Positions 5,794 to 48,410 of a stretch of DNA of 64,000 nucleotides are shown in pieces; within the stretch, counting starts at the first letter, position 1, and every line of letters starts with the position of its first letter. Position numbers and translations under genes: made by a program. Origin of the DNA: Phenylobacterium sp. (lineage in GTDB: Bacteria; Pseudomonadota; Alphaproteobacteria; Caulobacterales; Caulobacteraceae); the NCBI GenBank assembly GCA_017991675.1, contig JAGOQB010000003.1:227525-291524 (forward strand). The letters are read 5' to 3'. The notes beneath the pieces were generated by a model, which saw nothing but the letters and a program-made list of their open reading frames with translations, searched no databases and had not been told where the DNA came from.

Positions 5794-5829
5794 GTTTCCA
5801 CGTCATCGCCAGGATATAGGAACTACAGC

Positions 5830-6813
5830 CTAGCCCCAAAGCTGCGGCGTGGGCGGAAAAATCAGCGAGCCGTCGTACACCAGGCCCGGTTCGCGATCGC
5901 GGGCGAGCAGCAGCGGCCCGTCGAGGTCGGCCACCTCAGCCCCTTGGGCGATGATCATCGCCGGCGCCATGGCCAGCGAGGTCGCCACCATGCAGCCGGC
6001 CATCAGCTCCAGGCCCAGGGACCGCGCCTGCGCCACGACCGCCAGGGCCTCGGTCAGCCCGCCGGCCTTGTCGAGCTTGACATTGACCGCGCCATAGCGC
6101 CGCGCGCAGGTCGCCAGTTCGCGGCGGGTGTGCAGGCTTTCGTCGGCGCACAGCAAGACCGGGCTGGACCAGCCCTCCAGCGCCTCGTCGATGTCGGCAT
6201 GCAGCGGCTGCTCGATCATCTTGACGTCGAGCCGCGCGAATTCCGGGGCCAGCCGGACGAGGTCGTCGAAGCTCAAGCCTTCGTTGCCGTCGACGATCAG
6301 CCGGGTCTTCGGGGCGGCGGCGCGCACCGCGGCCACCCGGTCCAGGTCGTCAGGCCCGCCGATCTTCAGCTTCAAGAACGGCCGGCGCGCCATCGGCCTG
6401 GCGGCCTGCGCCATCGCTTCGGGGGTGTCGAGACTGAGGGTGTAGCAGGTCTTGACCGGGTCCAGGCGCGCCCGCCCCGCGGCCTGCCAGGCCGGGACGC
6501 CGCTCAGCTTGGCCTCCAGGTCCCAGAGCGCGCAATCCAGCGCATTGCGCGCCGCGCCCGGCGGCATGGCGTCCTGCAGCGCCTGCCGGGTCAGACCCGC
6601 TTCCAGGGCCGGGCGCAGCGCCTCGATCCGGGCCAGCTCGCCCTCGACGCTCTCGCCATATCGCCCATAGGGCACGGCCTCGCCGCGTCCGCTCGCCTCG
6701 CCCTCGCCAATCTCGGCGACGATGACATGGGCCTCGGTCTTGGCGCCCCGCGCGATCACAAAGGCGCCGGCCAGCGGCCAGCGCTCGTCGCGGACGGTCA
6801 GACGCCGGCTCAA
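5830..6813 (-). CDS. Dipeptide epimerase (L-Ala-D/L-Glu epimerase type, enolase superfamily)
   Basis: Enolase-superfamily epimerase, 327 residues, probably acting on L-Ala-D-Glu from recycled murein peptide. The active-site set is complete: KxK acid/base pair at K148/K150, metal ligands D175 (in VDGNEG), E201 (EQPL) and D224 (ADES), and the second catalytic lysine K248 (NVKLDKAGGL). That architecture is typical of dipeptide epimerases rather than mandelate racemases. The start overlaps the tipN stop by four bases (ATGA), so epimerase synthesis is coupled to tipN translation. Exact dipeptide specificity cannot be read from sequence. Confidence 0.88.
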   Translation of the reverse strand: MSRRLTVRDERWPLAGAFVIARGAKTEAHVIVAEIGEGEASGRGEAVPYGRYGESVEGELARIEALRPALEAGLTRQALQDAMPPGAARNALDCALWDLEAKLSGVPAWQAAGRARLDPVKTCYTLSLDTPEAMAQAARPMARRPFLKLKIGGPDDLDRVAAVRAAAPKTRLIVDGNEGLSFDDLVRLAPEFARLDVKMIEQPLHADIDEALEGWSSPVLLCADESLHTRRELATCARRYGAVNVKLDKAGGLTEALAVVAQARSLGLELMAGCMVATSLAMAPAMIIAQGAEVADLDGPLLLARDREPGLVYDGSLIFPPTPQLWG

Positions 6814-9353
6814 GCCAGATCGCCTGCCGCGGCGTCGAACAGCAGGTAGGTCCGGCCGGCCTCCGAGCTCAGCAGCTTCTCCACCACCAGCCCCGCGGCG
6901 TCGCGTTCGGCCGCGTCCTCCAGCAGTTCGTTGTAGCGGGCCAGGTAGGTCGTCACCTGCCGCTTCAGCGGCTCGTCGCTGAACAGCTTGCGGGTCAACC
7001 GGCGCGTGGCGGCCGGGGCCAGCTTGCGGACCACCGTCCGCGCGCCGTCCACGTCGCGCATCTGCAACGCCGCGGCCAGCTCGTGAATGCGGCTGCGCGG
7101 CAGCAGCGCGGTCGGATCGATGCCCATCGCGCCGATCTCGTCGGCGAGGATCTCTTCCAGCGGGCGGGCCGCCGCCTCGGCCTCCGCCTCGCCCTCGTCG
7201 TCATGCTCCTCGAGCGACGACAACAGGTCCTTCCAGGTCCAGCCTTCGCTGGCGGGCTCCTCGTGACGCCCGCCGGCCTGTTCGAAGACATGCGAGAACT
7301 CGGCGTCGGTCGCCGTCGGCGTCAGGCGCAGACGCGGCCGGCCGCGCTCGCCGGCCTCGTCCGCCGGCGCCAGTTCGTTCAGTTCCAGCTCGTCGGCTTC
7401 GTCGGCCGGCTCAGGCGCGGGCTCGACGACCGGGGCGGCCGCCGGTTCGGCCGGGGCCACGGCCTTGGCGGCCAGGCGCTCGCGCAGAGACACGCGCTCC
7501 GGACGCAACGGCGCGGGCGCCGGCGGCGGCGCGCCCGCCGAGGTGGCCACCGAGCCCATCAGCCGCACGGCCTCGCTCAGCATGTCGTAGTTGCGCCGCA
7601 CGCGCTCCTGGAACGCCTCGTCGATCGCCTGGGTCTCGTCGGCCGTGCGCCGCGCGTGATCCATCAGCTCGTCGATGCTCTCGGCCACGGCCATCCGGAC
7701 CTCTTCGGCGCGGTCGCGGGCGGCGGCCGGCAGCTTGGTCGCCCGCTCCTCGATCTCGCCCAGCATGCCGGTCAGCTCGTCCAGCGTGGCGCGGGCGGCC
7801 CGCGCGCCCTCGTCCAGCTTGCTGATGGTCGCCGCGCCGGCCTGCTCGACCATCTTCGCCGATTGTTCGATCAGGGCGCGAGCCTCCTCGAGCCGCGCCT
7901 CGAACACCTTGTTGGCCTGCTGGCCGGCGGTGAAGGCCGCCTCCGACAACTGGTCGACCTGGTCGCGAGCGGTCTCGGCATGGCGCGCGGCCACCTGGCG
8001 CGTGTCCTCGGCCGCCTGGGTCATGGCGGTGATCGCAGCGCGCGTCTGCTCCTCCAGGCGCGCGCGCTCGGCGGCGGCGGCCGCAGCCACGGCTTCCACA
8101 GAGTGCAGGGTCGACTGCCCGAATTCGTCGCGTTCGGCCTTGGCCGACTCCGCCAGCTCGCGGAACTGGGCGGTCGCCTCGGCCATCAGCTGGCGCAGCG
8201 CCTCGCCGCCCTTCACGGCGCGGTCGCCCATCTCGGCGGCCGACAGACGCGCCTGGCCGATGAATTCCGAGAGCTGGGCGGTGTGGGTCTCGGCCTGGGC
8301 GGCGAAGCTCTCATGGTCGGCGCGCAGCGCATGGGCGGCGGTGACCAGGCCGGCGCGCTGTTCGGTCAGCCCCTTCTCGACCGCGCCGATCTGCTCGGTC
8401 ACCCCGAGGCCGGCGGTCTCCAGTCGGGCGATATGGCGGGTCAGGTCCTCGGCAGCGGTGCGGGCGACGTCGCTGGTCTCGCCGGCCGCGGCAGCCAGGT
8501 CGGCGGCCCGGGCGGCCAGCGAGGCTTCGGCCTCGCGCAGCTGGGCCTCGGCCAGGTCGGACGCCTCGCCGACCATCTTCGCCTGGCGGGTGATCGCGTC
8601 GGCCACCGCGGCGGCCTGCGAGTCGAGGGTCTGGGCCAGGCCGCCCAGTTCGCTGCGCTCGCGGCCCAGGCTTTCGGACAGGCCCTGGGCGGTGCGCGCG
8701 GCGTTGGCGGCGGCGGCGGCGAGTTCCTCGCTCTCGCCGGCCAGCGCCTGGCGCAGCACGATGATCGTATCGCGCGCTTCCTGCGCGGCGGCGCCGGCGC
8801 GGGCGATCTCCTCGCGCATGGCGTGGACCAGGTCGACGGTCTGAGCGCCCGCGGCCATCGCCGGGGTCACCATCTCGTCGGCCAGGGTTTTGGTGCGCCG
8901 GGCTTCGGCGCCGAGCAACTGGCCTTGGCGGACCATGTAGGCCAGCGCCCAGACGAGGGCCGCCGGGCCGATGGCCAGCGCCGCGAACACGGCGACCGCG
9001 AACGGCTCGAAATCGAACGGAGCGACGGAGCGGCGATACCCCCAGGCGAAGGCGATCGGGGCGCAGGCCCACAGCACCGAAACCACCAGGGCGGCCATGT
9101 AGATCGTCCAGCCCGACGACGGCGCCACCGGCGTAGTCGGGGTCACCGGAATGCGCGGGGTCAGCCGCGAGGAATTGCTCGCGGGCGTCGACGTCTTGGC
9201 CTCGGCCGCCAGGTCGCCCGACGGCGGCGGGGCGAAGGCGAAAGCCTGATCGGCCGCCGCGGCCTCGGCCAAATCGACGCGCTCAGGCGCCGGTGCGCCT
9301 TCTCCGTCAAGCGATTGCAGGTCGACCGGTTGTTGCCGCTTCTTGATCTTCAT
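6810..9353 (-). CDS. tipN: TipN-like polarity/division-site marker: two TM helices plus long coiled coil
   Basis: An 847-residue protein with a disordered Pro/Ala-rich N-terminus (to about residue 80), two transmembrane segments (about 82-104 and 117-141) and a very long Ala/Glu/Gln-rich coiled coil to about residue 600. A Pro/acidic linker and a compact helical C-terminal domain follow. This is the architecture of Caulobacter TipN, the new-pole marker that orients polarity, flagellum placement and ParA-driven segregation; the Caulobacter protein is of similar size. I place the start at 9353 (MKIKKRQQPVDLQSL) rather than eight codons upstream. The coiled coil alone could mislead, but TM topology, size and lineage agree. 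Confidence 0.78.
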   Translation of the reverse strand: MKIKKRQQPVDLQSLDGEGAPAPERVDLAEAAAADQAFAFAPPPSGDLAAEAKTSTPASNSSRLTPRIPVTPTTPVAPSSGWTIYMAALVVSVLWACAPIAFAWGYRRSVAPFDFEPFAVAVFAALAIGPAALVWALAYMVRQGQLLGAEARRTKTLADEMVTPAMAAGAQTVDLVHAMREEIARAGAAAQEARDTIIVLRQALAGESEELAAAAANAARTAQGLSESLGRERSELGGLAQTLDSQAAAVADAITRQAKMVGEASDLAEAQLREAEASLAARAADLAAAAGETSDVARTAAEDLTRHIARLETAGLGVTEQIGAVEKGLTEQRAGLVTAAHALRADHESFAAQAETHTAQLSEFIGQARLSAAEMGDRAVKGGEALRQLMAEATAQFRELAESAKAERDEFGQSTLHSVEAVAAAAAAERARLEEQTRAAITAMTQAAEDTRQVAARHAETARDQVDQLSEAAFTAGQQANKVFEARLEEARALIEQSAKMVEQAGAATISKLDEGARAARATLDELTGMLGEIEERATKLPAAARDRAEEVRMAVAESIDELMDHARRTADETQAIDEAFQERVRRNYDMLSEAVRLMGSVATSAGAPPPAPAPLRPERVSLRERLAAKAVAPAEPAAAPVVEPAPEPADEADELELNELAPADEAGERGRPRLRLTPTATDAEFSHVFEQAGGRHEEPASEGWTWKDLLSSLEEHDDEGEAEAEAAARPLEEILADEIGAMGIDPTALLPRSRIHELAAALQMRDVDGARTVVRKLAPAATRRLTRKLFSDEPLKRQVTTYLARYNELLEDAAERDAAGLVVEKLLSSEAGRTYLLFDAAAGDLA

Positions 9354-9490
9354 GGCCCGTCGTAAGCGGCCTTCCACCCCTGCCGGCGGACGCGCAACAC
9401 ACGCACGCCCGTCATTGCACCCAGGATCGAAGGATTACCGGCGAACGCCCGCGAGGCAAAGCACTGATCGGCAGGCGCAGGCTGCGGCCC

Positions 9491-9742
9491 TTAGGTCCGC
9501 AGCAGCTTGGCGCGGGTCTCGGGACAGATTTCGCGGACCATGGTCGGTCCCTTGCCGGACTTGGCGATCACCCGCGGCGCGGGATTTACGGGCGTCTTGC
9601 GGCTGATCGTGCGCGCGACCGTACGCTCCGCCGGAACAGGCTTTTCCACCTGCTGGGCGTCCAGCGTCACGCCGAAATGCGAATAGGCCGCGGCGGATGA
9701 CGACACCACCACGGCAGCCACGATCTCGGTAAAGGTCTGCAT
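9491..9742 (-). CDS. Hypothetical small protein with N-terminal hydrophobic segment
   Basis: An 83-residue protein: a short hydrophobic N-terminus (FTEIVAAVVVSSSAAAYSHFGV) that could be a membrane anchor or uncleaved signal, then a basic, Pro-rich tail ending REICPETRAKLLRT. It stands alone between ogt and tipN on the same strand. No family recognised. Support is a good in-frame ATG, plausible codon use and synteny with no overlapping gene. Confidence 0.5.
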   Translation of the reverse strand: MQTFTEIVAAVVVSSSAAAYSHFGVTLDAQQVEKPVPAERTVARTISRKTPVNPAPRVIAKSGKGPTMVREICPETRAKLLRT

Positions 9743-9849
9743 CGGAGCTCTCCCGTCCGCCCGACACGATTCCAGCGAGCGTCGTTATACGATGGCCGCT
9801 GCGATCGGGCGATGTGTCGCAACATGAAATTTCAGTCATGAAGCGTCGA

Positions 9850-10377
9850 TCACTTGTCGACGAAAGCCGCTCCCTCGTGGCTGAGCAGCCAATGCTTGCG
9901 ATCAAGCCCGCCGCCATATCCGGTCAAGGCGCCGTCCGAGCCGATCACCCGGTGACAGGGCACGACGATCGAGACCGGGTTGGACCCGTTGGCCAGGCCG
10001 ACGGCGCGGATCGCCTTCGGCCGCCCGATCCGCTCGGCCAGCCCCTTGTAGGTCAAGGTTTCGCCGGCCGGGATGGTGCAGAGCGCGGTCCAGACCTGAC
10101 GCTGAAACTCGGTCCCGCCCGTGCGCCAGGCGATCCGGCCCAGCGCCGTCAGGTCGCCGGCGAAGTAGGCGTCCAGCTCGGCGCGCACCGCAGCCGGCGC
10201 CCCTCCGCCGACCAGATCGGTTGGCGGGTTCTGGCGACGCAGCAGCGTGGTCAGCCGCGTCTCGTGGGTCGTCCAGTCGAAGGCGCGCAGACAGCCGCCC
10301 GCGTCCGTGACCAGCAGGCCTTCGCCGAGCGGCGTCGCCATCCGGTCGAGGGTCAGGACTTCAGGCGGCCTTGGCAT
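9850..10377 (-). CDS. ogt: Methylated-DNA-[protein]-cysteine S-methyltransferase
   Basis: Suicide repair protein that transfers the O6-alkyl group of guanine to its own cysteine. The active-site motif PCHRVIG is present in VVPCHRVIGSDGALTGYGGG, preceded by the helix-turn-helix finger (GETLTYKGLAERIG) and the arginine-finger region GRPKAIRAVGLANGSNP. From ATG at 10377 the product is 175 residues (MPRPPEVLTLD). The longer frame starting at 10431 reads basic, non-conserved sequence inside the upstream gene. It overlaps the Ada-AlkA stop by 17 bases, so the two repair genes form one operon. Confidence 0.93.
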   Translation of the reverse strand: MPRPPEVLTLDRMATPLGEGLLVTDAGGCLRAFDWTTHETRLTTLLRRQNPPTDLVGGGAPAAVRAELDAYFAGDLTALGRIAWRTGGTEFQRQVWTALCTIPAGETLTYKGLAERIGRPKAIRAVGLANGSNPVSIVVPCHRVIGSDGALTGYGGGLDRKHWLLSHEGAAFVDK

Positions 10378-11857
10378 GCTTGCTCTCCGAGGGGTTCTTC
10401 GGATCGGCCGCCCAGAGGTGCGAGGCCGCATAGGCGCGCCAGGGCCGCCAGCGTTCGGCCCGGGCCAGCAGTTCGACGGCGGTCGGGCGCACGCCGCCCG
10501 GGCCTTCCAGCGCCCGCATCAGGCCGATGTCGGCGCTGGGGAAGGCGTCGGGCTCGCGCAGCGCGCGCATGGCGATGTACTGCGCCGTCCACTCCCCGAT
10601 CCCCGGCAGCGCGCGCAACGCGGCGACCGCTTCGTCGAGACTGCGGCGCATGCCGAAGAGCTCGGGATCGGCCGCGGCCGCGGCGGCCAGCCCGACCAGG
10701 GCGCGGCCGCGGGCCCTGGGCATGGCCAGGGTCTCGACATCGACTTGGACCAGGGCCGCCGGCTCAGGGAAGAAATGGGTCAGGCCCAGCGCGTTGGCGG
10801 CCTCGTCCCCCAGCCGCGCGCCATGCACGGCGGTGATCTTGCCGGCCAGCATCCGCGCCGCCTGCACGGTGATCTGCTGGCCCAGCACCGCGCGCACCGC
10901 CAGCTCGAAGCCGTCCCACGCGCCCGGCGCCCGCAGGCCCGGCCGCGCCGCCACCAGCGGCGCCAGGTCCGGGTCCTCGGACAGGTGCGCCTCGATCACC
11001 GCAGGATCGGCGGCCAAATCGAACACCCGCCGCACCCTGGCGATGACCGCGGGCCAGGCCTCGACCTTCGGAAACCGCAGCGTGACCTTCAGATAGGCGC
11101 CCTCGCCCGGCTCGATCATCACCACGCCGCGCGCCTGCCCCACGGCAAGGGTCCGGGCATAGCGGCCGTCGCGCACGACCTCGACGCCTGGGATCGCCCG
11201 CGCGGTCAGGAAGGCCAGCATCGCGTCCCAGTCATAGGGCGCGCGATAGGGCAGCCGGATGGTCGCCGCCCCGCCTTCGCCGGCCGCCACCTCCGCGCCG
11301 CCCAGCCGGCGCAGCTTGGCCGGCGGGCGGTCGAACAACTGCTGGAAGGTCTCGTTGAAGCGCCGGACGCTGCCGAAGCCGGCGGCCAGCGCCACCTCGG
11401 CCATCGGCATCCGGGTCTCGTGCAGCAACTGCTTGGCCAGCAGCACCCGCCGGGTCTGGGCGACTGCGACCGGCGAGGCGCCGACATGCTGCTGGAACAA
11501 TCGCCGCAGCTGGCGCTCGCCGACGCCCAGCCGTTCGGCCAGGCTGTCCACGTCGCCATTGTCCAGCGCGCCGGCCTCGATCAGGCCCAGCGCCCGCGAC
11601 ACCGTGTTCGAGGTGCCGCGCCACGATCCCAGGTCCGGCGAGGTCTCAGGCCGGCAGCGTAGGCAGGGCCGGAACCCCGCCTCCTGCGCGGCCGCCGCCG
11701 AGCGGTAGAACCGCATGTTCTCGCGCTTGGGCGTGCGGGCCGGACAGATCGGCCGGCAGTAGATCCCGGTGCTCGTCACGCCGCTGAAGATGCGCCCGTC
11801 GAAGCGGGCGTCTCGCATCTGGAAGGCGCGGTAGCAGGCGTCGTCATCCATATCCAT
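10361..11857 (-). CDS. Ada-AlkA fusion: methylphosphotriester sensor/AraC-type regulator with 3-methyladenine DNA glycosylase
   Basis: A 498-residue three-part protein. Residues 1-75 are the Ada zinc module with ligands C34, C38, C65 and C68; C34 would be the methyl acceptor that reads methylphosphotriesters. About 85-190 is an AraC-type HTH domain (two helix-turn-helices, SLAERLGVGERQLRRLFQQ and MAEVALAAGFGSVRRFNETF). About 200-490 is an AlkA-type glycosylase with the helix-hairpin-helix LPGIGEWTAQYIAMRAL and the catalytic Asp in ADIGLM. It therefore combines alkylation sensing, activation and N-alkylpurine excision. Direct repeats upstream may be its own operator. Confidence 0.92.
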   Translation of the reverse strand: MDMDDDACYRAFQMRDARFDGRIFSGVTSTGIYCRPICPARTPKRENMRFYRSAAAAQEAGFRPCLRCRPETSPDLGSWRGTSNTVSRALGLIEAGALDNGDVDSLAERLGVGERQLRRLFQQHVGASPVAVAQTRRVLLAKQLLHETRMPMAEVALAAGFGSVRRFNETFQQLFDRPPAKLRRLGGAEVAAGEGGAATIRLPYRAPYDWDAMLAFLTARAIPGVEVVRDGRYARTLAVGQARGVVMIEPGEGAYLKVTLRFPKVEAWPAVIARVRRVFDLAADPAVIEAHLSEDPDLAPLVAARPGLRAPGAWDGFELAVRAVLGQQITVQAARMLAGKITAVHGARLGDEAANALGLTHFFPEPAALVQVDVETLAMPRARGRALVGLAAAAAADPELFGMRRSLDEAVAALRALPGIGEWTAQYIAMRALREPDAFPSADIGLMRALEGPGGVRPTAVELLARAERWRPWRAYAASHLWAADPKNPSESKHAKAA

Positions 11858-11892
11858 GCGGCGATGATCGGCCTATGAGCGGCGCATGTCTC

Positions 11893-11936
11893 GCGGTTTT
11901 CGGACATGACCGGCCTGGCTTCGGCGGTTTTCGGAC
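11893..11936 (-). promoter_or_regulatory. Tandem direct repeat upstream of Ada-AlkA (candidate Ada operator)
   Basis: Two identical 13-base copies (GTCCGAAAACCGC read on the minus strand) occupy 11893-11905 and 11924-11936, 31 bases start to start (about three helical turns), 36-80 bases before the Ada-AlkA start. AraC-family regulators usually bind direct repeats on one DNA face, so autoregulation by the neighbouring Ada domain is a reasonable guess. Confidence 0.42.
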
Positions 11937-12108
11937 GGCTCCATTTTCCTCGGCGGCCTGTCAGTAAATCTCTATCGTCATCGGTCCTCGCGTCCCTTAA
12001 GCCGTCGCTCAGGGCCAATCCGCGCGGCGCGTCAGCAGCGACGGGCGGACTTTTTCGTTATTAGAATTCAGGGTGAGGCCCGAGGTTCACGTGCAAGGTA
12101 CAGCCCTG

Positions 12109-13038
12109 ATGCAGGCCAAGGCGCCCGCCATCGCCCCGGAAACGCTGACCCATCTTCAGCGCCTGGAGGCCGAGAGCATCCACATCATGCGCGAGGTGGC
12201 GGCCGAGGCCGAGCGCCCGGTGATGCTCTATTCGATCGGCAAGGACTCCGCCGTGATGCTGCATCTGGCGGCCAAGGCGTTCTATCCGTCCAAGCCGCCC
12301 TTCCCGCTGCTCCACGTCGACACGACCTGGAAGTTCCGGGCGATGTACGAGATGCGCGAGCGCATGGCCAAGGAGCTCGGCTTCGAGCTGCTGGTCCACA
12401 AGAACCCCGAGGCCGTCGAGCGGAACATCAACCCGTTCGACCACGGCAGCGCGCTGCACACCGACATCTGGAAGACCGAGGGCCTGAAGCAGGCGCTCGA
12501 CAAGTACGGCTTCGACGCGGCCTTTGGCGGCGCGCGCCGCGACGAAGAAAAGAGCCGCGCCAAGGAGCGCATCTTCTCGTTCCGCTCGGCCCAGCACCGT
12601 TGGGACCCCAAGAACCAGCGCCCGGAGCTCTGGCGGCTCTACAACACCCGCAAGAACCCCGGCGAGAGCATCCGTGTGTTCCCGATCTCCAACTGGACCG
12701 AGCTGGACATCTGGCAATACATCCACCTTGAGAACATCCCGATCGTGCCGCTGTACTTCTCGGAAGTGCGGCCGGTGGTCGAGCGCGACGGCACGCTGAT
12801 CATGGTCGACGACGACCGGATGCCGCTGCGCCCGGGCGAGGTTCCGATGCAGAAGTCGGTGCGGTTCCGCACCCTGGGCTGCTACCCGCTGACCGGCGCG
12901 GTCGAGTCCACCGCTGCTACGCTGCCTGAAATCATTCAGGAAATGCTGCTCACCACCACCTCGGAGCGCCAGGGCCGGATGATCGACCACGACCAGGCCG
13001 CCTCGATGGAGAAGAAGAAGCAAGAGGGCTACTTCTGA
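12109..13038 (+). CDS. cysD: Sulfate adenylyltransferase small subunit
   Basis: PP-loop ATP-sulfurylase subunit that makes adenosine 5'-phosphosulfate from ATP and sulfate with CysN. The pyrophosphatase loop is [48 protein letters not shown] and the C-terminal [12 protein letters not shown]...EGYF are all canonical. An upstream GTG (12073) is in frame, but ATG at 12109 ([16 protein letters not shown]) gives the usual family start and about 309 residues. The stop codon overlaps the cysNC start (TGATG), which couples the two chains. Confidence 0.96.
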
Positions 13039-14942
13039 TGGCCCACCAGTCCGCACTCATCGCCGAGGACATCGAGGCGTACCTGTCCGCGCACGAGCGC
13101 AAGAGCCTGCTGCGGTTCCTGACCTGCGGGTCGGTGGACGACGGCAAGTCGACGCTGATCGGCCGCCTGCTCTATGACTCGAAGATGATCTTCGAAGATC
13201 AGCTGGCCGCGCTCGAAGCAGACTCCAAGAAGGTTGGCACCCAGGGCGGCGACATCGACTTCGCCCTGCTGGTCGACGGCCTGGCCGCTGAGCGCGAGCA
13301 AGGCATCACCATTGACGTCGCCTACCGCTTCTTCTCGACCGACAAGCGCAAGTTCATCGTCGCCGACACCCCCGGCCACGAGCAGTACACCCGCAACATG
13401 GTCACCGGCGCCTCGACCGCCGATGCCGCGGTCATCCTGATCGACGCGCGCAAGGGCGTGCTGACCCAGACCCGCCGGCACTCGTACCTGGTCTCGCTGC
13501 TGGGCATCCGGCACGTGGTTCTCGCCGTCAACAAGATGGATCTGGTGGGCTGGGATCGGCAGGTTTACGACGCGATCCTGCAGGAATATGCCGATTTCGC
13601 CGCCCAGATCGGCATCAAGGACTACACCGCAATCCCCATGTCCGCCTTGAAGGGCGACAACATCACCAGCCGCAGCGAGGCCGCGCCCTGGTATGAGGGG
13701 CCGGCCCTGATGACCCTGCTGGAGACCCTGCCGGTCGAGGACGATCTGCGCGAGCAGCCGTTCCGCATGCCGGTCCAGTGGGTGAACCGTCCGAACCTGG
13801 ATTTCCGTGGCTTTTCAGGGCTGATCTCGACCGGGACGGTGCGTCCAGGCGACAAGATCAAGGCCCTGCCGTCGGGCCGCGAGAGCACTATCGACCGTAT
13901 CGTCACGTTCCGCGGCGACCTTGACGAAGCGGTGGCCGGACAGTCGGTCACCCTGACCCTGAAGGACGAGATCGACATCTCGCGCGGGGACGTCATCGCC
14001 GAGGCCGCGGCGCCGCCGCCGGTCGCCGACCAGTTCGAGGCGACCATCGTCTGGATGGACGACGAGGCGATGCTGCCGGGCCGGCCCTACTTGCTCAAGG
14101 TCGGCACCCGCGTGGTTTCGGCCCAGGTCACCGAGCCGAAGTACAAGGTCAATGTGAACACGCTGGAGCACCTGGCCGCCAAGCGGCTGGAGCTCAACGA
14201 GATCGGGGTCTGCAACCTCTCGCTCGACGCCCCGATCGCGTTCGACGCCTATGCCGAGAACCACGACCTCGGCGGCTTCATCCTGATCGACCGGATCAGC
14301 AACCGGACCGTCGGGGCCGGCATGCTGCACTTCGCCCTGCGCCGCAGCCAGAACATCCACTGGCAGGCGCTGGACGTCGACAAGGCCTCGCGCGCCGCCC
14401 TCAAGGGCCAGCGCGGCCGGGTGGTCTGGCTGACCGGCCTCTCGGGCTCGGGCAAGTCGACGATCGCCAACCTGGTCGAGAAGCGGCTGCACGCCGACGG
14501 ACGCCACACCTATCTGCTCGACGGCGACAACGTGCGCCACGGCCTGAACAAGGACCTCGGCTTCACCGACGAGGACCGGGTCGAGAACATCCGCCGGGTG
14601 GCCGAGGTCGCCAAGCTGATGGTCGACGCCGGGCTGATCGTGCTGGTCTCGTTCATCTCGCCGTTCCGCGCCGAGCGCCGGCTGGCCCGTGAGCTACAGG
14701 CCGAGGGCGATTTCGTCGAGGTGTTCGTCGACACGCCGCTGGCGGTGGCCGAGCAGCGCGACGTCAAGGGCCTCTACAAGAAGGCGCGGGCCGGCGAGCT
14801 CAAGAACTTCACCGGCATCGACAGCCCCTATGAGGCGCCCGAGAACGCCGAGATCGTCATCGACACCACCGCGATGTCGGCGACCGAGGCGGCCGAGCAG
14901 ATCGTCGCCTGGCTGGAAGGCGAGCTCGACTACTCGATCTGA
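13038..14942 (+). CDS. cysNC: Bifunctional sulfate adenylyltransferase large subunit / adenylylsulfate kinase
   Basis: A 634-residue fusion. The N-terminal CysN GTPase has the P-loop GSVDDGKST at 31-39, DTPGHEQY (G3) and NKMD (G4), driving APS synthesis by CysD. The C-terminal CysC APS kinase has its own P-loop GLSGSGKS at 467-474, followed by [10 protein letters not shown] and [13 protein letters not shown], and makes PAPS. The fusion of CysN and CysC is common in alphaproteobacteria. Together with cysD it delivers activated sulfate for assimilation or sulfation. No reductase genes (cysH, cysI) are in the window. Confidence 0.96.
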
Positions 14943-14997
14943 CGCTGGTCGCGGCTCGACCTCGCGCTATGTTGGCGGCCAGGTTGGAGTGAGCGGC

Positions 14998-16569
14998 ATG
15001 GCGGCATCGAATTCGGCGTTTGCAGAGGTGGCCCGCGCCGTCCGCGAGGCGGCGTCCCCCCCGGCGCGGCTGCTGACCGAGGCCGACCGCAGCCTCACCG
15101 TCGCCGAGATCTACGAGGGCGGCCGCCTGACCCCGGCCTATGGCTTCATGCTGTTCAGCGCCTGCGGCATCGCGGCGCTGGGCCTGCTGCAGTCGTCGGT
15201 CGCGGTGATCATCGGGGCGATGCTGATCTCGCCGCTGATGGGTCCGATCATGGCCATGGGCATGGCCCTGGCGCGGCTGGACGCGCGGGCCTTTCGTTCG
15301 GCGGCGACGACGCTGGTGGTCGGCGTGCTGCTGTCGGTGCTGGCCTCGGTGCTGATCATCTGGATGTCGCCGCTGAAGGACGCGACGCCGGAGATTCTGG
15401 CGCGCACGCGCCCGACGCTGCTGGACCTGATCGTCGCCCTGCTGTCCGGCTTCGTCGGCGCCTACCTGACCATCAACCGCAAGGGCGGCGCGATCGCCGG
15501 GGTCGCCATCGCCACCGCCCTGATGCCGCCGCTGGCGGTGGTCGGCTATGGCCTGGCGACCGGCGCCTGGCAGATCGCCGGCGGGGCGTTCCTGCTGTTC
15601 CTGACCAACGTGGTGTCGATCCTGGGCGCGGTGTACGGCGTGGCCCGCCGCTACGGATTCCGGCCGCAGGTGCGCGAGGGCGGGGCCTGGGAGACCTGGG
15701 CGCTATTGGGGGTGATCGTCGCTTTGTGCGTGCCGCTGGCCGTGTCGCTGCGCAGCATCGTCATCGAGGCCCGCGAGACCGCCCGGGTGCGCAGCATCAT
15801 CACCACCGCCTTCGAAGGCTGTTCGCCCCACATCGCCGAACTGGTCGTCGGGACCAAGCGCGGCGGGGCCAATGAGGTGCAGGCCGTGGTCGTCACCCGC
15901 CGGTATGTCCCGGACGCGCGCGGCGCGATCGCCCGCCAGCTCGTGGCCGGCGCCAATGTCGAGATCGAGCAGGTCGTCACCGAGAGCGGCGTGCCGCCCA
16001 CCGCCGGCGGCGGCGGAGCGCTGGCCAACCGCGTCACCCCGACGGTCGCGAGCACGGCGGGCCCCGAACAACGGCTGCGCGCAATGCTGGCCGGCGTCGG
16101 CCAGGTCGAGTCGCTGCGCCTGGAAGCCGGGACGCTGGAAGCCGGCGTGGTGCTCAACGGAACCCCGACCCTCGCCGACTACCAGGCCGCCGAGCAGGCC
16201 GCGCAACGCTTCCTGCCGCAGACCCCGGTGCGGCTGGTCCCGCCGCTGGCGCCGCTGCCGGCCGTTCAGTTCCCCTATGGCTCGAGCGCGCTGGACGCCG
16301 ACGGCCGCCGGACCGCCGAGTCGATCGCCTGGGCGGCCAGCCGCTGGGGCCTGAGCACGGCCAAGATCGAAGGGCTCGCCAGCCCCAGCCCGCGCGGGCG
16401 CCACGCCGCCGACCTGCGCGTGGCCGAGAAACGGGGCCAGGCGGTGGCGAGCGTGCTGCGCGAACGCGGGATCGATCAGGTGAGCGTGAGCGCCAGCGTG
16501 CCGGAAGCCGCCGAGGGCGACGCGGCGCAGTATCTGGCCGCCCGCGTCACCCTGCTGCCCACGCCCTAG
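14998..16569 (+). CDS. DUF389 (TIGR00341-type) membrane protein with C-terminal OmpA-like domain
   Basis: A 523-residue protein. The DUF389 domain (about 35-260) begins after TEADRSLTVAEIYEGGRLTPAYGF and contains the hallmark GAMLISPLMGPIMAMGMAL among roughly six membrane helices, ending near residue 265. The soluble remainder includes, at about 420-510, an OmpA/MotB-like unit (VQFPYGSSALDADGRR...RVAEKRGQAVASVLRERGI) without the usual GHTD. Function of DUF389 is unknown. The ATG at 14998 is 55 bases after cysNC; cotranscription is possible but no functional link is evident. Confidence 0.85.
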   Translation: MAASNSAFAEVARAVREAASPPARLLTEADRSLTVAEIYEGGRLTPAYGFMLFSACGIAALGLLQSSVAVIIGAMLISPLMGPIMAMGMALARLDARAFRSAATTLVVGVLLSVLASVLIIWMSPLKDATPEILARTRPTLLDLIVALLSGFVGAYLTINRKGGAIAGVAIATALMPPLAVVGYGLATGAWQIAGGAFLLFLTNVVSILGAVYGVARRYGFRPQVREGGAWETWALLGVIVALCVPLAVSLRSIVIEARETARVRSIITTAFEGCSPHIAELVVGTKRGGANEVQAVVVTRRYVPDARGAIARQLVAGANVEIEQVVTESGVPPTAGGGGALANRVTPTVASTAGPEQRLRAMLAGVGQVESLRLEAGTLEAGVVLNGTPTLADYQAAEQAAQRFLPQTPVRLVPPLAPLPAVQFPYGSSALDADGRRTAESIAWAASRWGLSTAKIEGLASPSPRGRHAADLRVAEKRGQAVASVLRERGIDQVSVSASVPEAAEGDAAQYLAARVTLLPTP

Positions 16570-43479: not shown

Positions 43480-46400
43480 ATGGGCATCTCGCAGCTTTCC
43501 CCCACCCAGATCGGCGCGCTTCCCGTCTCCACCTTCGAGGCCTTGACGACCGACGAGCTCAAGAGCCTGAGCGCGAGCCAGGTCGGCGCCATTCCGGCCG
43601 CGGGGCTCTCGGCGCTGAGCGGCGAACAGGTCGCCTCGCTGTCGACGGCGCAGATCAAGGGGGTCACGGCCGCGCAGATCAAGGGGCTGGCGGCGGCCGA
43701 CATGGCGGAGTTCACCCCCGCCCAGCTGCTGGCGTTTTCCAGCGCCCAGCTTAACGCCCTGTCGAGCGCCAATTTCGCCGCCCTCTCGCAGGAGCAGGTC
43801 GAAGGCCTGTCGCGCGCGCAGGTGCAGTCCCTGTCGCCGACGATGCTGGCGGCCCTGGGCGTCGCGGACGTCAACGAGTTCAACGCCGCGCAGATCGGCG
43901 CCCTGACCAGCGGCCAACTGCGCGCACTGTCGGAGCTGCATATCGCCGGGCTGTCGACGTCGCGGCTGGACGGGCTGAGCGGCCAGCAGATGAGCGCCCT
44001 GACCGCCCGGCAGTTGGCGGCGCTGACCGCCGAGCAGTTCGCCAGCCTCGACGGCGTTCAGGCGCTGGGCATATCTCCCCTTCAGATCAAGCTGCTCTCG
44101 GCCGCCGACTTCGCCAAGGTCACCACCGAGCAGATCCATAGCTTCAGTGCGGCCCAGATCGGCGCGATCAACGCCGGCGGCCTGTCGACGCTGACCCCGG
44201 GCGAGATCGCGGGGCTGTCGGCCGCGCAGATCAAGGGCCTGACCCCGGCCCAGATCAAGGCGATGTCGGTCGAGCAGCTCACCGCCTTCACGGCCCAGCA
44301 GTTCACGGCGTTCTCGGCGCTGCAGATCGGGGCGTTTTCGCCGGCGTCGCTCGGCGCCCTGCCGCCTGAGCGGCTCGCCGGGCTGTCGAGCGCCCAGATC
44401 AGGGGGCTGACCGGACCGCAGATTTCGAGCCTGGATGCGGCGCACCTGGCGGCGCTGAGGCCAGAGCAGATCGGGGCGCTGAGCTGGACGCAGACCGGCG
44501 CGATCAGCCCCACGCAGCTCGCCGCATTCACCACGGGCCAGATCGGCGGCCTGACCGCCGCGCAGGTGAGCGGCCTGACCGGCAGCCACCTGGCGGCGCT
44601 GTCGCCGGACCTGGTCGGGGCGTTAACGCCGGCCCAGCTCTCCGGCCTGACGTCCCGCCAGATGGCGCAGCTGCCGCGCGCCACCTTCGACAGTTTCAGT
44701 TCGGCCCAGGTGCTGGCCCTCAGCCCCGCCCAGCTCGGTTCGCTCAGCGGGGGCAACATCACCTCGCTGACCCTGGACGAGGCGGCTGGCCTCAGCACCG
44801 CCCAGGTCCGCGGCCTGACCCGCGGCCAGCTGGCGGTCCTGGACGAGGCCTTCATCGGCGCCTGGAGCAGCGACCAGCGGCTGAGCCTGACCGGCGGCCA
44901 GCTCAGCGCGCTGTCGCCGGCCAAGCTGGCGCTGTTCAGCGGGGCCGAGTTCGCCGCCCTGTCCAAGCCCCAGATCCAGGGCCTCACGCCCGCCCAGGTG
45001 GGCGCGTTGCCGACCGCCGCCTTCATCGCCCTGACCGGTCCGCAGGTCCTGGCGTTCAGCCCCGGCCAACTCGCCGCGCTGAGCCTGCCGAACACCGCCT
45101 CGCTGACGTCGGCGGAGATCGCCGGCTTCACGCCCCAGCAGATCGCCGCCCTCACCCCGGCGCAGATCGGCGCCCTGGGCGAAGAACACACGGCCGCCTT
45201 CTCGCCGAGCCAGGCCCGGACGCTGTCGGCGGCCCAGATCGCGGCGCTGAGTCCCGCCAAGCTCGGCGCGATCGCCGCCGCCAGCCTGGCGGCGCTGTCG
45301 GCCTCGCAGGTCCGTTCGATCCCGGCGTCGAACCTTGCCGGGCTGGACGCCGCCGCGCTCGCCAGGTTCACAGGCCCGCAGATCGGGGCGCTGAGCACGG
45401 GCCAGCTCGGCGCGCTGTCGCAGGCGCAGGTGAGTTCACTGTCGGAGACCCAGCTCGACGGAATGACCGCCGGCCAGCTCGGCGCGCTCTCGACTGAAGG
45501 TCTGGCCGCGCTCACCGCATCGCAGCTCGCCTCGCTAAGCGCGACCCAGATCAAGGGCCTGACCACCGGCCAGCTTTCGGCCCTGGCCCCGGCCGACTTC
45601 GCCGAACTGCAGCCGGCCCACCTGCTCGCCTTCAGCGGCGCGCAGCTCGGGGCGCTCAGCGTCGAGAACTTCCTTTCCCTGCCTCCGCAGGTGCTGAGCG
45701 CGCTGAACGCCAGCCAGTTGCGCGGCCTGAGCCCAGCGCAGATCATCGCCCTGCCGCCGTCGAGCTTCGCAGCGCTCGGCCCGGTCCAGCGGCTGGCGCT
45801 CAGCCCCTCGCAGATCGGCGCCCTGAGTCTGGCCTCGACCGCCGAGCTTACCGCGGCCGAGGTCGGCGGACTGTCGGCCGCCCAGATCGGGGGCCTGCGC
45901 AACGAACAGCTGGCGACGCTCAGCGCCCACCTGCCCGCCTTTATCCCGTCCCAGATCGCCGGCCTGACCGCAGCCCAGCTGAGCAGCCTGACGCCCGCGC
46001 AGATCGCCGGGCTCTCGGCCACGCAGGTCGGCGGCCTGAGCGCCCAGCAGATCGGCGGCATGTCGGCGCCGGCCTATTCGGCCCTGACCCAGGAGCAGGT
46101 CGCCGGGCTGAAGGCCACGCAGCTCTCCGGGCTCGGCGCGACCCGCATGGGCGATCTGAGCGCCGAAGACTTCGACGAATTCAGCGCCGACCAGATCGTG
46201 TCGTTCAGCGCCGGGCAGCTGGCGGGCCTCAGCCTGCGCAACATAACCTCGCTGACGGACGACGAGCTGGCGCGGCTCAGCCGCCAGCAGGTGACCGGCC
46301 TGACGCCGGCCCAGGTCGCCGCGTTCGCCCCGGCCCAGTTCGACGTCTTCGCGCCGGGCCAGGTGCAGGCGATGACCGCCGCCCAGATCGGAGCGCTCGA

Positions 46401-47103
46401 TCCGGACCTGCTCGCAGCCATCGCGCCCGAGAGCCTGCGCAAGCTGGGGGCGCTGCAGATCGGGGGCCTGACGACCGGCCAGCTGTCGTCGCTGGCGGGC
46501 GATGACCTGCGCAAGTTTGCGGCCGCACAGATCGGCCGCTTCTCGACCGCCCAGCTCAACGCGCTCAGCCCGGCGCAGATGGCGGCGTTCGACCCCGAGC
46601 AGGTCGCCGGGCTCACGGCCGGCCAGCTCTCGGGACTTTTGCCTGCGAACCTGCGGGCCCTGACCGCCGCCCAGCTCGCCGCGCTGTCGAGCGATCAGCT
46701 GGCGGGGCTGTCGGGCGAGCAGATCAGCGTCCTGACCCTCGATCAGTTCCAGGCGCTGAGCGCGAGCCAGGTGGGGGGCCTCAGCGCCGCACAGATCGGC
46801 GGCCTGCCGCTCGCCAAGATCGCGCAGCTGACGGCGCAGGACCTGGGGGAGTTCGGCACGGCGCAGTTCCGGGCGTTGGCCCCGGCCCAGATCGCGGCGC
46901 TGTCACCGGCGCTGATCGGCGCCCTGACGCCGCAACAAGGCGCGATGTTCGAGATCAGCCAGGTCGCCGCGCTGACGGGGGCCCAGCTCGCCGAGCTGCC
47001 GACGGCGGTGATCGGGGCGATGAACCCCTGGGTCCGCGAGGCCTTCACCGCAAGCCAGATCGCGGCGTTGAGCCAAGCCCAGCGTGACGCGCTGCAGGGC
47101 TGA
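43480..47103 (+). CDS. Giant octapeptide-repeat protein, 150 tandem units, family not recognised
   Basis: A 1,207-residue protein that is almost wholly one repeat. After MGISQL, 150 consecutive octads follow the rule [S/T]-[P/A]-x-Q-[I/L/V]-x-[A/G/S]-L, ending in a two-residue tail. One unit (102, residues 815-821) has seven residues. Ser/Thr at position 1, Pro favoured at 2 and Gln/Glu at 4 look like a helix N-cap, N1-Pro and capping box, so each octad may start a short helix in an alpha-solenoid. There is no signal peptide, TM segment, RTX motif or Cys; only three Trp and one Tyr. The codons differ between copies, so the array is old. It may be an adhesin, scaffold or decoy; function unknown. 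It is convergent to the phosphonate operon. Confidence 0.85.
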   Translation: MGISQLSPTQIGALPVSTFEALTTDELKSLSASQVGAIPAAGLSALSGEQVASLSTAQIKGVTAAQIKGLAAADMAEFTPAQLLAFSSAQLNALSSANFAALSQEQVEGLSRAQVQSLSPTMLAALGVADVNEFNAAQIGALTSGQLRALSELHIAGLSTSRLDGLSGQQMSALTARQLAALTAEQFASLDGVQALGISPLQIKLLSAADFAKVTTEQIHSFSAAQIGAINAGGLSTLTPGEIAGLSAAQIKGLTPAQIKAMSVEQLTAFTAQQFTAFSALQIGAFSPASLGALPPERLAGLSSAQIRGLTGPQISSLDAAHLAALRPEQIGALSWTQTGAISPTQLAAFTTGQIGGLTAAQVSGLTGSHLAALSPDLVGALTPAQLSGLTSRQMAQLPRATFDSFSSAQVLALSPAQLGSLSGGNITSLTLDEAAGLSTAQVRGLTRGQLAVLDEAFIGAWSSDQRLSLTGGQLSALSPAKLALFSGAEFAALSKPQIQGLTPAQVGALPTAAFIALTGPQVLAFSPGQLAALSLPNTASLTSAEIAGFTPQQIAALTPAQIGALGEEHTAAFSPSQARTLSAAQIAALSPAKLGAIAAASLAALSASQVRSIPASNLAGLDAAALARFTGPQIGALSTGQLGALSQAQVSSLSETQLDGMTAGQLGALSTEGLAALTASQLASLSATQIKGLTTGQLSALAPADFAELQPAHLLAFSGAQLGALSVENFLSLPPQVLSALNASQLRGLSPAQIIALPPSSFAALGPVQRLALSPSQIGALSLASTAELTAAEVGGLSAAQIGGLRNEQLATLSAHLPAFIPSQIAGLTAAQLSSLTPAQIAGLSATQVGGLSAQQIGGMSAPAYSALTQEQVAGLKATQLSGLGATRMGDLSAEDFDEFSADQIVSFSAGQLAGLSLRNITSLTDDELARLSRQQVTGLTPAQVAAFAPAQFDVFAPGQVQAMTAAQIGALDPDLLAAIAPESLRKLGALQIGGLTTGQLSSLAGDDLRKFAAAQIGRFSTAQLNALSPAQMAAFDPEQVAGLTAGQLSGLLPANLRALTAAQLAALSSDQLAGLSGEQISVLTLDQFQALSASQVGGLSAAQIGGLPLAKIAQLTAQDLGEFGTAQFRALAPAQIAALSPALIGALTPQQGAMFEISQVAALTGAQLAELPTAVIGAMNPWVREAFTASQIAALSQAQRDALQG
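43498..47094 (+). repeat. 24-base (octad) tandem array with 7-octad superperiod
   Basis: The coding array itself: 149 units of 24 bases and one of 21. Units lacking Gln at position 4 concentrate at offsets 0, +3 and +4 of a superperiod of seven octads (168 bases). The anchor units (often with D/T at 4, and Phe at 5 or 8) are 2, 9, 16, 26, 33, 43, 50, 57, 64, 71, 78, 88, 95, 102, 112, 119, 126, 140 and 147. Four intervals are 10 octads instead of 7. Confidence 0.8.
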
Positions 47104-47108
47104 GGGCT

Positions 47109-48410
47109 CTAGGCCGGCGGCCGGCCCCGGAAGTAGCGCCAGGCGAAGACCAGGCAGGCTAGGCCGGCGACGCCGACCGCCGCAGAAGCGACCGCCAGGA
47201 ACGGCGCCCAATCCAGGTCGACGCCGCCGAGGCTCTTGGCCAGCAGCATCAGCAGCGATCCGGCATAGCCGCTCGCGTCGGCGACATAGATCAGGAAGCC
47301 GGCGGTGCCCGCCGACCCGGCATAGGCCATGAAGCGGTCGAACAGCACCCCGTTGAACGGCGTGTAGGCCAGATAGACGCCTGCCCCGAGCCCGATCATC
47401 CAGCCCATCGGCCCGATCCATCCCAGGAGGTATCCGGCGCTGACCGCGGCGCAGGCGATGAGCCCGCTTCCAACCATGACCAGATTGGCGATGAACGCCC
47501 GGCGGTTGTCGCGGAACACCGCCAGCAGGGCCAGGGCGGCCAGCACCACCGCGGCCACCGGCAGTTCGGAGAGGCTGAAGATCGCCGGATCCGCGCCATG
47601 GCCGAGGTCGGCCCAGATCTCGGCGGCGAAATTGTCCCGGAAGTCGCGCAGCGCGGTCAGCGCCACATAGATCGCGATCATGCCGACCAGACCGGGCGCA
47701 TACCGCATGAAGAGCGCGCGGCGCGCGGCGCGGTCCATCGGGCTGCGCCGCTGGCGGGCGGCCTCGTCGGCGCGGCTGGGCGGCGGCAGATAGCTGAGCC
47801 CGGCGACGCAGACGAGGAGCAGCGGCGTAAACAGCAGGCCGGTCGCGGCCGGCATCCAGAACTCGCCCACGCCATGGCCCTGCATCAGCCACATGCCGAC
47901 CGACTTCACGACCCCGGACGAGACGATGAAGCTGGCGCAGAGCATCGCGCCGATGACCTCGGAGAGGCGGCGCCCCTCAACGAAGCCGAACACCAGACCC
48001 CAGATCATGCCGAGCGGCAGGCCGTTGAGGAACAGGAAGACCAGATTGTAGGGCGCCGGCGTCAGGCCGAAGCCGACCAGCGCCAGTTCGGCGCCGGCGA
48101 TGAGGGCGACGATCGAGGCCGCCCGTCTTGAGGCCGGCAGCTCGGAGATCACCTTCACGCCGAGAAACTTGGACAGCGCGTAGCCCACGACCTGGGCGAT
48201 CACCAGCGCCACCTTGTAGTCGACCGCCAGCCCGCCGATGTCCGCGTAGTCGGCGGCCGTGAACGGCTTTCGATAGGCGTACATCGCGAAATAGGCGCCG
48301 AACGCCATCAGGCCGCCGTAGATCGCGAGCACCGCCGGGGGCGCGGCCGCCAACCAGCGGGTCAGCCGGGGCGCGCGCAGGGCCGTCATTGCGGTGGCGG
48401 ACATGGCCAA
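47109..48410 (-). CDS. MFS-fold transporter (DUF5690-like), phosphonate locus
   Basis: A 433-residue, about 12-helix permease. AIYGGLMAFGAYFAMYAYRKPFTAADY is the sugar-phosphate-antiporter-like start (compare UhpT/GlpT MYAxRKP), and LPLGMIWGLVFGFVEGRRLSEVIG and PFNGVLFDRFMAY are distinctive of what I recall as DUF5690. It starts two bases after the phnX stop, so it is the fourth gene of the TBDR-FAD oxidase-phnX operon. It would move the aminophosphonate, or a product, across the inner membrane in place of an ABC transporter. Substrate inferred from context. Confidence 0.7.
   Translation of the reverse strand: MAMSATAMTALRAPRLTRWLAAAPPAVLAIYGGLMAFGAYFAMYAYRKPFTAADYADIGGLAVDYKVALVIAQVVGYALSKFLGVKVISELPASRRAASIVALIAGAELALVGFGLTPAPYNLVFLFLNGLPLGMIWGLVFGFVEGRRLSEVIGAMLCASFIVSSGVVKSVGMWLMQGHGVGEFWMPAATGLLFTPLLLVCVAGLSYLPPPSRADEAARQRRSPMDRAARRALFMRYAPGLVGMIAIYVALTALRDFRDNFAAEIWADLGHGADPAIFSLSELPVAAVVLAALALLAVFRDNRRAFIANLVMVGSGLIACAAVSAGYLLGWIGPMGWMIGLGAGVYLAYTPFNGVLFDRFMAYAGSAGTAGFLIYVADASGYAGSLLMLLAKSLGGVDLDWAPFLAVASAAVGVAGLACLVFAWRYFRGRPPA

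Follow-up and report, generated by a model that had tools for sequence, protein, structure and literature searches.

HMW1A and HMW1C are a known case of a large exported protein whose dedicated cytoplasmic glycosyltransferase is encoded beside it. The serine-rich repeat adhesins likewise combine a large repetitive exported protein with an adjacent dedicated cytoplasmic glycosyltransferase, and giant adhesins exported by a type I secretion system (T1SS), such as SiiE, are very long repetitive proteins; SiiE is built of Ig domains. Two solved structures are relevant to the fold of the protein reported here. One is HeliScrew4 (PDB 9zem), a chain of 120 aa with room for 15 units of eight residues (octads) such as TPEQIAAL, which are very similar to one another in the printed stretch of its sequence; the name alone suggests that it is a designed protein. 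The other is human mesothelin, a eukaryotic, glycosylphosphatidylinositol-anchored protein described as a right-handed solenoid whose 24 short helices form nine layers, with ARM/HEAT units of 27 to 37 residues, irregular helices, and disulfides (PMC10035497).

Here we analyze one gene in a 64,000-nucleotide stretch of the Phenylobacterium sp. contig JAGOQB010000003.1 (hereafter the window). It encodes a 1,207-aa protein of 149 octads, which are of the same kind as those of HeliScrew4, and it belongs to the Pfam family PF20080 (ALTTAQ_rpt). What many of its relatives share with the adhesin systems is an adjacent gene for a glycosyltransferase of family 41 (GT41). The folds, transferases, and export routes of the serine-rich repeat adhesins and of HMW1A/HMW1C differ from those of the octad arrays; here, an alpha-screw would serve as substrate, and the window member has no such transferase beside it. 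Unlike the Ig domains of SiiE, an octad array has the look of a single uninterrupted alpha-solenoid, and no T1SS gene adjoins the window gene. It is reasonably probable, in our view, that the window protein forms a rigid alpha-screw rod and represents an unglycosylated branch of a family whose members are probably glycosylated and exported. (Labels beginning with L, G, and H are our own, for loci, genomes, and matches in plasmid and phage records.)

The octad array and the constraint on it

PF20080 matches 41 stretches of the window protein, with an E value of 3.1e-121 and 395.2 bits against a cut-off of 26.4, and the solved HeliScrew4 chain is matched both by the protein itself (phmmer E value, 8.7e-16) and by a profile made from it (E value, 7.9e-33), which is a likeness of sequence only. 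A first-pass annotation of the window, made from the letters, had recognized no described family here, and because of these two matches that claim of novelty falls. No NCBIfam model comes near a cut-off. The Pfam entries CAAP1, Phage_TAC_7, SAM_3, and LRR_EndoS also score above their cut-offs, and we take them as incidental matches to short Ala/Leu-rich helices. Leucine-rich repeats have one beta strand per repeat of 20 to 30 residues; neither AlphaFold2 model of the window protein contains a strand, and the weak LRR_EndoS match (36.5 bits) was rejected. The terms ALTTAQ and HeliScrew occur in no paper of the open-licence PubMed Central collection that was searched, and among the matches listed by wider literature searches none describes such arrays, the superperiod reported below, or the GT41 association, although a description may exist in other literature or with different terminology. 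The window protein belongs to a named family, is a genuine product under constraint, and has a function for which we found no description. The family name and PF20080, a model that spans 38 residues, were already known; the superperiod, the two faces, and the linkage to GT41 and T1SS genes come from the present analysis.

A dynamic-programming, position-weighted parse divides the protein into a 6-residue leader, 149 octads, a single 7-residue unit (7-mer), and a 2-residue tail, which is exactly the arithmetic given in the first-pass annotation (6 + 149x8 + 7 + 2 = 1,207). Octads cover 1,192 of the 1,207 residues of the protein, which has a mass of 120.5 kDa and an isoelectric point of 4.7 and is without Cys. 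The octad rule proposed earlier, [S/T]-[P/A]-x-Q-[I/L/V]-x-[A/G]-L, stands as a consensus, since 105 of the 149 octads fit at least four of the six named positions and 68 fit at least five, but it does not hold as a strict rule (25 octads fit all six). When units are cut in a fixed phase, which the 7-mer breaks, 50 of 150 fit at least five of six relaxed classes, while 500 residue shuffles reach at most 4. By eye, the leader opens an N-terminal pattern like M.IS.LS.AQI..LSV.T that is common to many other arrays, and the last octads are similar to the ends of GT41-linked arrays. The protein has no hydrophobic N-terminus (maximum Kyte-Doolittle mean there, 1.03) and no transmembrane-like stretch (maximum 19-residue mean, 1.53), in agreement with the earlier statement that it carries neither a signal peptide nor a transmembrane segment.

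The array is a real gene under purifying selection. A same-genus genome (G022) has a copy that is 92% identical at the protein level, and a Phenylobacterium metagenome-assembled genome (L056; NZ_PNLB01000025.1) has one that is 78% identical. All three genes have 1,207 codons, with 0 indels and with the 7-mer (GAHLPDF in the 78% identical ortholog) in the identical place. Differences between the window gene and L056 fall 206/114/380 on the three codon positions, and the ratio of nonsynonymous to synonymous substitution rates (dN/dS) is 0.21 to 0.26 across the three ortholog pairs (78 to 92% protein identity). It is lowest at octad positions 4 and 8 (0.05 to 0.10 in two pairs) and highest at octad position 3 (0.43 to 0.64). 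Antisense open reading frames of up to 659 aa lie over the array, and because the ortholog differences by codon position follow the plus-strand gene, we take them to be shadows of the 24-base period. A recent microsatellite or fresh expansion is ruled out, since Tandem Repeats Finder reports only short patches in the array DNA, mostly of 24 bp, and 99% of the window octads are unique. A decaying, near-neutral expansion without function could account for a patchy distribution, with arrays in 10 of 36 same-genus genomes (here and below, counts of genomes include the window's own), but we consider it highly improbable: it is contradicted by the dN/dS values, by the absence of any indel or frameshift in 1,207 codons in three genomes, and by a position 4 that is unchanged on one side of the array, as described below. 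The window genome, only 71% complete, yielded no further array.

The 3.44-octad superperiod and the predicted screw

For each array, we computed a periodogram of octad composition along the array and compared it with shuffled octad orders. For the window array, the peak is at 3.42 to 3.45 octads with a z of ~16, and the refined superperiod is 3.436 octads, which is 27.5 residues or 104.8 degrees per octad. Each half of the array yields it separately (z values of 9.8 and 7.8), and the 7-mer suits the superhelical register best as one unit (z, 15.7), compared with none (13.3) or two (12.8). Among 30 random arrays of matched column composition, the maximum z is 4.4, and one array has its top peak in the 3.33- to 3.50-octad band. 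That band holds the top peak in 48 of 48 arrays from the window and the loci below L161 and in 55 of 65 overall, and a peak among the top three in 63 of 65; because the arrays are largely homologous, these counts are not independent events. The 65 arrays omit L150, anything shorter than 480 aa or 55 octads, and frames of L161 to L178 with fewer than 40 motif hits. Left out of all array counts are L068, whose array is truncated on both sides; L075, which is the weak match of genome G052 and has no array; and L165/L166, where a larger protein holds a few octads. The broken initial frame of L060 enters the octad parse and not the 49-array table used below, and the several arrays that end at contig or stretch ends are counted as they stand.

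We infer that the superperiod corresponds to the superhelical screw itself. There would be 3.44 octads per superhelical turn, so that 150 units would make ~44 turns and, with an assumed 1 nm per layer, a rod of roughly 40 to 45 nm. Some arrays speak against a universal screw of this pitch. The 10 of 65 with another top peak are L161 and L162 (two parts of the array of G937), L164 (G954), and seven frames of family f200; in f200 and the other exceptions, a 16-residue alternation or another peak is stronger than the 3.4-octad peak, and L168 and L172 have no peak near 3.4 octads. In the five plasmid arrays, the superperiod ranks first in two and second in two, while other peaks fill the top three in the array of the Rhizobium CCGE532 plasmid.

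Structure prediction is consistent with such a screw. AlphaFold2, given residues 247 to 406 with an alignment of 12 non-overlapping stretches from the window gene and its L056 ortholog, returns 20 helices of 4 to 6 residues in 20 octads, with a predicted local distance difference test score (pLDDT) of 92.7 and a predicted template modeling score of 0.82. Residues 808 to 1207, with a two-sequence alignment, again give one helix per octad (pLDDT, 87.5); confidence is lowest over the opening 20 residues, near the 7-mer and the truncated end. Each octad is thus predicted to be one short helix of a continuous alpha-screw, and the two models and the fitting superperiod support the solenoid of roughly one-turn helices, one per octad, that the first-pass annotation had proposed. 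All five Foldseek matches in the PDB with an E value below 0.001 are human mesothelin (8cxc and 8cx3; E values of 2.3e-4 to 6.8e-4), with query-based template modeling scores (TMq) of 0.39 to 0.54 but root mean square deviations of 5.6 to 10.5. The mesothelin family is absent from the 7 Pfam matches of the window protein up to an E value of 10, and 9zem is not among the 50 fold-search matches listed. A viral origin was rejected: the four BFVD fold matches with an E value below 0.001 have TMq values of 0.22 to 0.39, and, as set out below, phage records gave one partial match and a pattern scan of viral contigs, which reaches close relatives only, gave none.

The window array also has sides. When its octads are binned by phase, Gln occupies position 4 in 41 of 42 octads in two neighboring bins. 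Across from this Gln ladder, two bins have it in 12 of 43 octads, and there Phe at position 5 and Asp/Glu/Asn at position 4 gather. Between the window gene and L056, position 4 is unchanged in three bins of the Gln side, an unevenness reached in 0 of 2,000 permutations. Overall divergence between these two does not depend significantly on phase (p 0.19), and position by position only 4, 7, and 8 fall below 0.05, of ten tests. Asp/Glu/Asn at position 4 stand 160 to 180 degrees from Gln at position 4 in 11 of 14 arrays; this opposition is partly automatic, which weakens it as evidence, because the residues are mutually exclusive at that position. Acidic residues at position 7 are free of that exclusion, and they stand 145 to 180 degrees away in 10 of the 14 arrays, the other four having three or fewer such residues each. 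Phe at position 5 is less regular across the 14, and L163 does not fit the sidedness.

Nine relatives carry block duplications (at least six octads of near-identical DNA), and 21 of the 22 listed lags deviate from whole turns by no more than one eighth of a turn. The primitive lags of 24, 31, 38, and 55 octads are 6.98, 9.02, 11.06, and 16.01 turns. Four lags drawn at random would fit this well with a P of ~2e-4; which lags count as primitive was our own choice. A one-sided rod that keeps its register fits both the sidedness and the whole-turn duplications. The window protein would be two-faced, with a near-invariant ladder of position-4 Gln on one side and Phe at position 5 together with Asp/Glu/Asn at position 4 opposite, and its Gln face would be a constrained surface. 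The superperiod is a numerical, testable prediction of fold from sequence alone that would explain the addition of blocks in whole turns, and the arrays are natural templates, hundreds of units long, for designers of short-helix repeat proteins. In L060 (G011), a long array at positions 7179 to 15992 is broken into several overlapping frames, by assembly error or decay, and its matches repeat 912 bases apart, which is 38 octads.

Glycosyltransferase and secretion genes beside relatives

In eight same-genus loci (L058, L060, L062, L063, L067, L069, L072, and L076), a gene for a GT41 enzyme with tetratricopeptide repeats (TPR) directly follows a long or 5'-cut array. The array-linked enzyme matches Pfam Glyco_transf_41 with an E value of 1.1e-83 and aligns with the solved XcOGT, and chains of human O-linked N-acetylglucosamine transferase (OGT) are among its PDB matches. 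The subclade of this enzyme (at least 58% identity) is present in all 8 same-genus genomes that have arrays not of the window type and in none of the other 28, where the best GT41 is 44% identical. In our table of 49 arrays, the nearest GT41 in the stretch is more than 45% identical for 22 arrays and lies within 400 bp for 20; L146 and L148 have two GT41 genes each, the nearest ~4 kb away at 35 to 38%. A GT41 is missing from the stretches of 25 of the 49 arrays, several of which are truncated by the end of a contig or stretch; 15 of the 18 arrays of at least 1,900 aa have one. The link also occurs outside the order in L145 (G488), and it is seen in G937 (L162) and in L163, where the GT41 is 1.8 kb from the array. 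Five plasmids were examined, one of them from Shinella; the four scanned for transferases (two Rhizobium, one Cereibacter, and one Pseudomonas) all have a GT41 by the array. Among the other phylum-level loci, a GT41-like gene is in the stretch of L171, L173, and L177, and none is shown in the rest. This link supplies candidate substrates for bacterial OGT-type enzymes.

The composition of the arrays bears on where sugar might be attached. Thr at position 3 has a median frequency of 0.73 in GT41-linked arrays (n = 22) versus 0.51 in the others (n = 27; Mann-Whitney p 0.0009, for arrays that are not independent). As a universal mark of glycosylation it fails in L163 and in the Rhizobium, Cereibacter, and Pseudomonas arrays. 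Because some GT41-linked arrays have little position-3 Thr, the acceptor could be Ser/Thr at position 1 or 2.

The adjacency might instead reflect a surface-polysaccharide or flagellar island, in which the long arrays are secreted, unglycosylated rods and the GT41 modifies another protein, for example, flagellin. A FlaF gene adjoins the array in L070, L074, and L116, flagellin genes lie within ~7 kb in L069 and L072, and a nucleotide-sugar epimerase recurs near arrays. We nevertheless judge such an island to be rather improbable. FlmG, the Caulobacter flagellin O-glycosyltransferase, has TPR and a GT-B domain in 596 residues (PMC7591256). Next to flaF in L070 and L116 there is a distinct TPR gene, of ~600 aa, that is like FlmG in size, TPR, and place, a likeness by description and not by sequence. 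Because an FlmG-sized gene separately adjoins flaF in these two loci, we argue that the array-linked GT41 is probably not the flagellin enzyme. In addition, no FlaF or flagellin is recognized in the stretch of 18 of the 21 GT41-linked loci below L146, and the GT41 subclade is absent from 26 array-less congeners.

Genes of T1SS type point to a possible route of export. Pfam-confirmed ABC and HlyD genes of this type lie near the arrays in L146, L171, and L162, the last with an outer-membrane factor in addition; L177 has a Pfam-confirmed ABC gene, and T1SS-type genes are annotated near the arrays in L186 and L189, with ABC genes confirmed by Pfam. In Cereibacter sphaeroides strain HJ, the array, GT41, and ABC-HlyD genes form one group. 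In two of the loci with T1SS-type genes, L162 (positions 5433 to 6182) and L189 (15361 to 16107; a Pseudomonas plasmid), the array ends in a similar C-terminal module with Asp/Asn-Gly calcium-loop-like motifs and weak EF-hand matches, near the T1SS genes. Neither Pfam nor NCBIfam names a secretion module at these C-terminal ends, where there are only weak EF-hand-like and other sub-threshold matches.

From these neighborhoods, a typical GT41-linked member would be O-glycosylated on octad Ser/Thr in the cytoplasm and then exported, by a T1SS where present, as a long surface or matrix rod. The window protein would work as an unmodified rod, an adhesive or structural scaffold, with little extra Thr. 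In agreement with the latter, none of the 49 arrays has less Ser/Thr (17%) or less position-3 Thr (6 to 8%) than the window type. Unlinked arrays of other Caulobacteraceae, setting aside those cut by contig ends, keep 40 to 71% Thr at position 3, so that absence of the enzyme and scarcity of Thr coincide in the window lineage. A stronger form of this proposal, which we advance tentatively and think somewhat doubtful, is that ALTTAQ arrays are exported, O-glycosylated alpha-screw fibers whose register keeps the Gln and the acidic-aromatic faces aligned over up to hundreds of turns, that the rods pack side by side via these stripes, and that the window protein is the sugar-free version. The TPR-GT41 would sugar octad Ser/Thr, and the register would be 105 degrees per octad with added blocks of 24, 31, 38, or 55 octads.

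A number of observations weigh against an exported, glycosylated family with the window protein as its sugar-free branch. Glycosylation and export of the relatives are predictions from gene neighborhoods. Three arrays of 1,916 to 2,501 aa (L065, L117, and L120) have no GT41 in the examined stretch, and L065, a ninth same-genus locus, has a long array whose 3' flank is in view. Despite its GT41, L163 has position-3 Thr in 23 of 267 octads (9%), and the GT41-linked Rhizobium, Cereibacter, and Pseudomonas arrays have it in 8 to 18%. No T1SS was recognized beside arrays in the Caulobacteraceae loci, where part of the neighbors were scanned with Pfam, and no dedicated T1SS was found in the genus: an ABC query gave generic ABC proteins only, in 60 of 60 genomes, with at most 39% identity among the matches listed. 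There is no GT41 at the loci of the window gene and its two orthologs and no T1SS beside them (by gene order and a Pfam scan of 7 window neighbors), and the window protein has no recognizable secretion signal. One distant GT41 each, 31 to 33% identical to the reference, is present in the window genome (G000, 71% complete) and in G022 (100% complete). Because the window locus is without GT41 and T1SS, function is carried over from relatives.

The same absences would suit a cytoplasmic scaffold, a long protein-binding alpha-solenoid of ARM/HEAT kind unrelated to glycosylation or export: there is no signal peptide-like or transmembrane-like stretch and no GT41 or T1SS neighbor, and the closest solved natural fold is mesothelin, described as an ARM/HEAT-like solenoid (PMC10035497). 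We think this unlikely, as relatives with the same superperiod adjoin GT41 genes and, in other families, lie near T1SS genes. Furthermore, upstream genes are syntenic in all three ortholog loci while downstream genes differ, and these syntenic genes are all that is kept beside the three orthologs, with no partner gene.

Distribution of the arrays and features of the locus

Similar arrays in other Caulobacteraceae, which the first-pass annotation had proposed to look for, are present: PF20080 occurs in 49 of 249 genomes of this family, and the Caulobacter vibrioides genome used as a control matches both PF20080 and GT41. It occurs in 11 of the 60 genomes of the relatives search, one of which (G052) has a single weak match, in 6 of 385 genomes sampled in the class, and in 17 of 397 sampled in the phylum. 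The longest open frames have 5,446 and 6,436 codons, and array frames of ~4,900 to 6,400 codons are found in L161/L162 (G937), L167/L168 (G721), L174 (G749), and L175 (G756). In G427 (L150) and G813 (L165), a few ALTTAQ-type octads are embedded in larger proteins and do not form a plain array; by eye, L150 resembles an adhesin. Three genomes with a GT41-linked array also carry a second type of array, shorter (~610 to 810 aa; L059, L064, and L073), which lies between what we take to be priA-like and TerC-like genes.

By tblastn, 59 of 72,556 plasmid records have a match; most are from Rhizobium, Shinella, and Cereibacter, and two weak ones are from Staphylococcus. The matched proteins are deposited under names such as hypothetical protein, heme utilization protein, and ICE nucleation protein; the latter two are on ALTTAQ-type arrays of Cereibacter sphaeroides plasmids (H26 and H42 to H46). 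Both names look wrong, because the models of their window relative are all-helical. Ice nucleation protein is a beta-solenoid of 16-residue repeats, and that label was rejected, the Cereibacter proteins being judged through the window protein. Strain 2.4.1 of C. sphaeroides also carries an array on a plasmid. A plasmid of a Spiroplasma endosymbiont (H77, CP117533.1) has a distant octad-like match with 24% identity and 97% coverage. Phage records gave one partial match in 50,697, a distant octad-like one at the start of the Vibrio phage F23s1 record (H21, OK483201.1), and a pattern scan of viral contigs that reaches close relatives only found none.

The features of the window gene are listed in Table 1.

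Table 1. Positions of the array gene and its parts in the window
Feature	Position	Strand	Basis
ALTTAQ-repeat (PF20080) octad-array protein	43480..47103	+	Open reading frame, Pfam, parse
6-residue leader MGISQL	43480..43497	+	Parse
Octads 1-101, residues 7-814	43498..45921	+	Parse; AlphaFold2 covers residues 247-406
Single 7-residue unit SAHLPAF, residues 815-821	45922..45942	+	Parse; AlphaFold2
Octads 102-149, residues 822-1205	45943..47094	+	Parse; AlphaFold2 covers residues 808-1207
Last two residues and stop	47095..47103	+	Parse

The end of the array gene lies 5 bases from the end of a convergent DUF5690 gene (47109 to 48404, minus strand), beyond which are genes for a HAD hydrolase, an FAD oxidoreductase, and a TonB receptor. 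This group, which presumably resembles a phosphonate-use cluster, has no counterpart grouped in this way downstream of the array in the two orthologs. A short unit that window-type arrays lack, of 6 residues (7 in L065), follows eight or nine octads, at residues ~71 to 86, in all 12 non-window arrays with an intact N-terminus.

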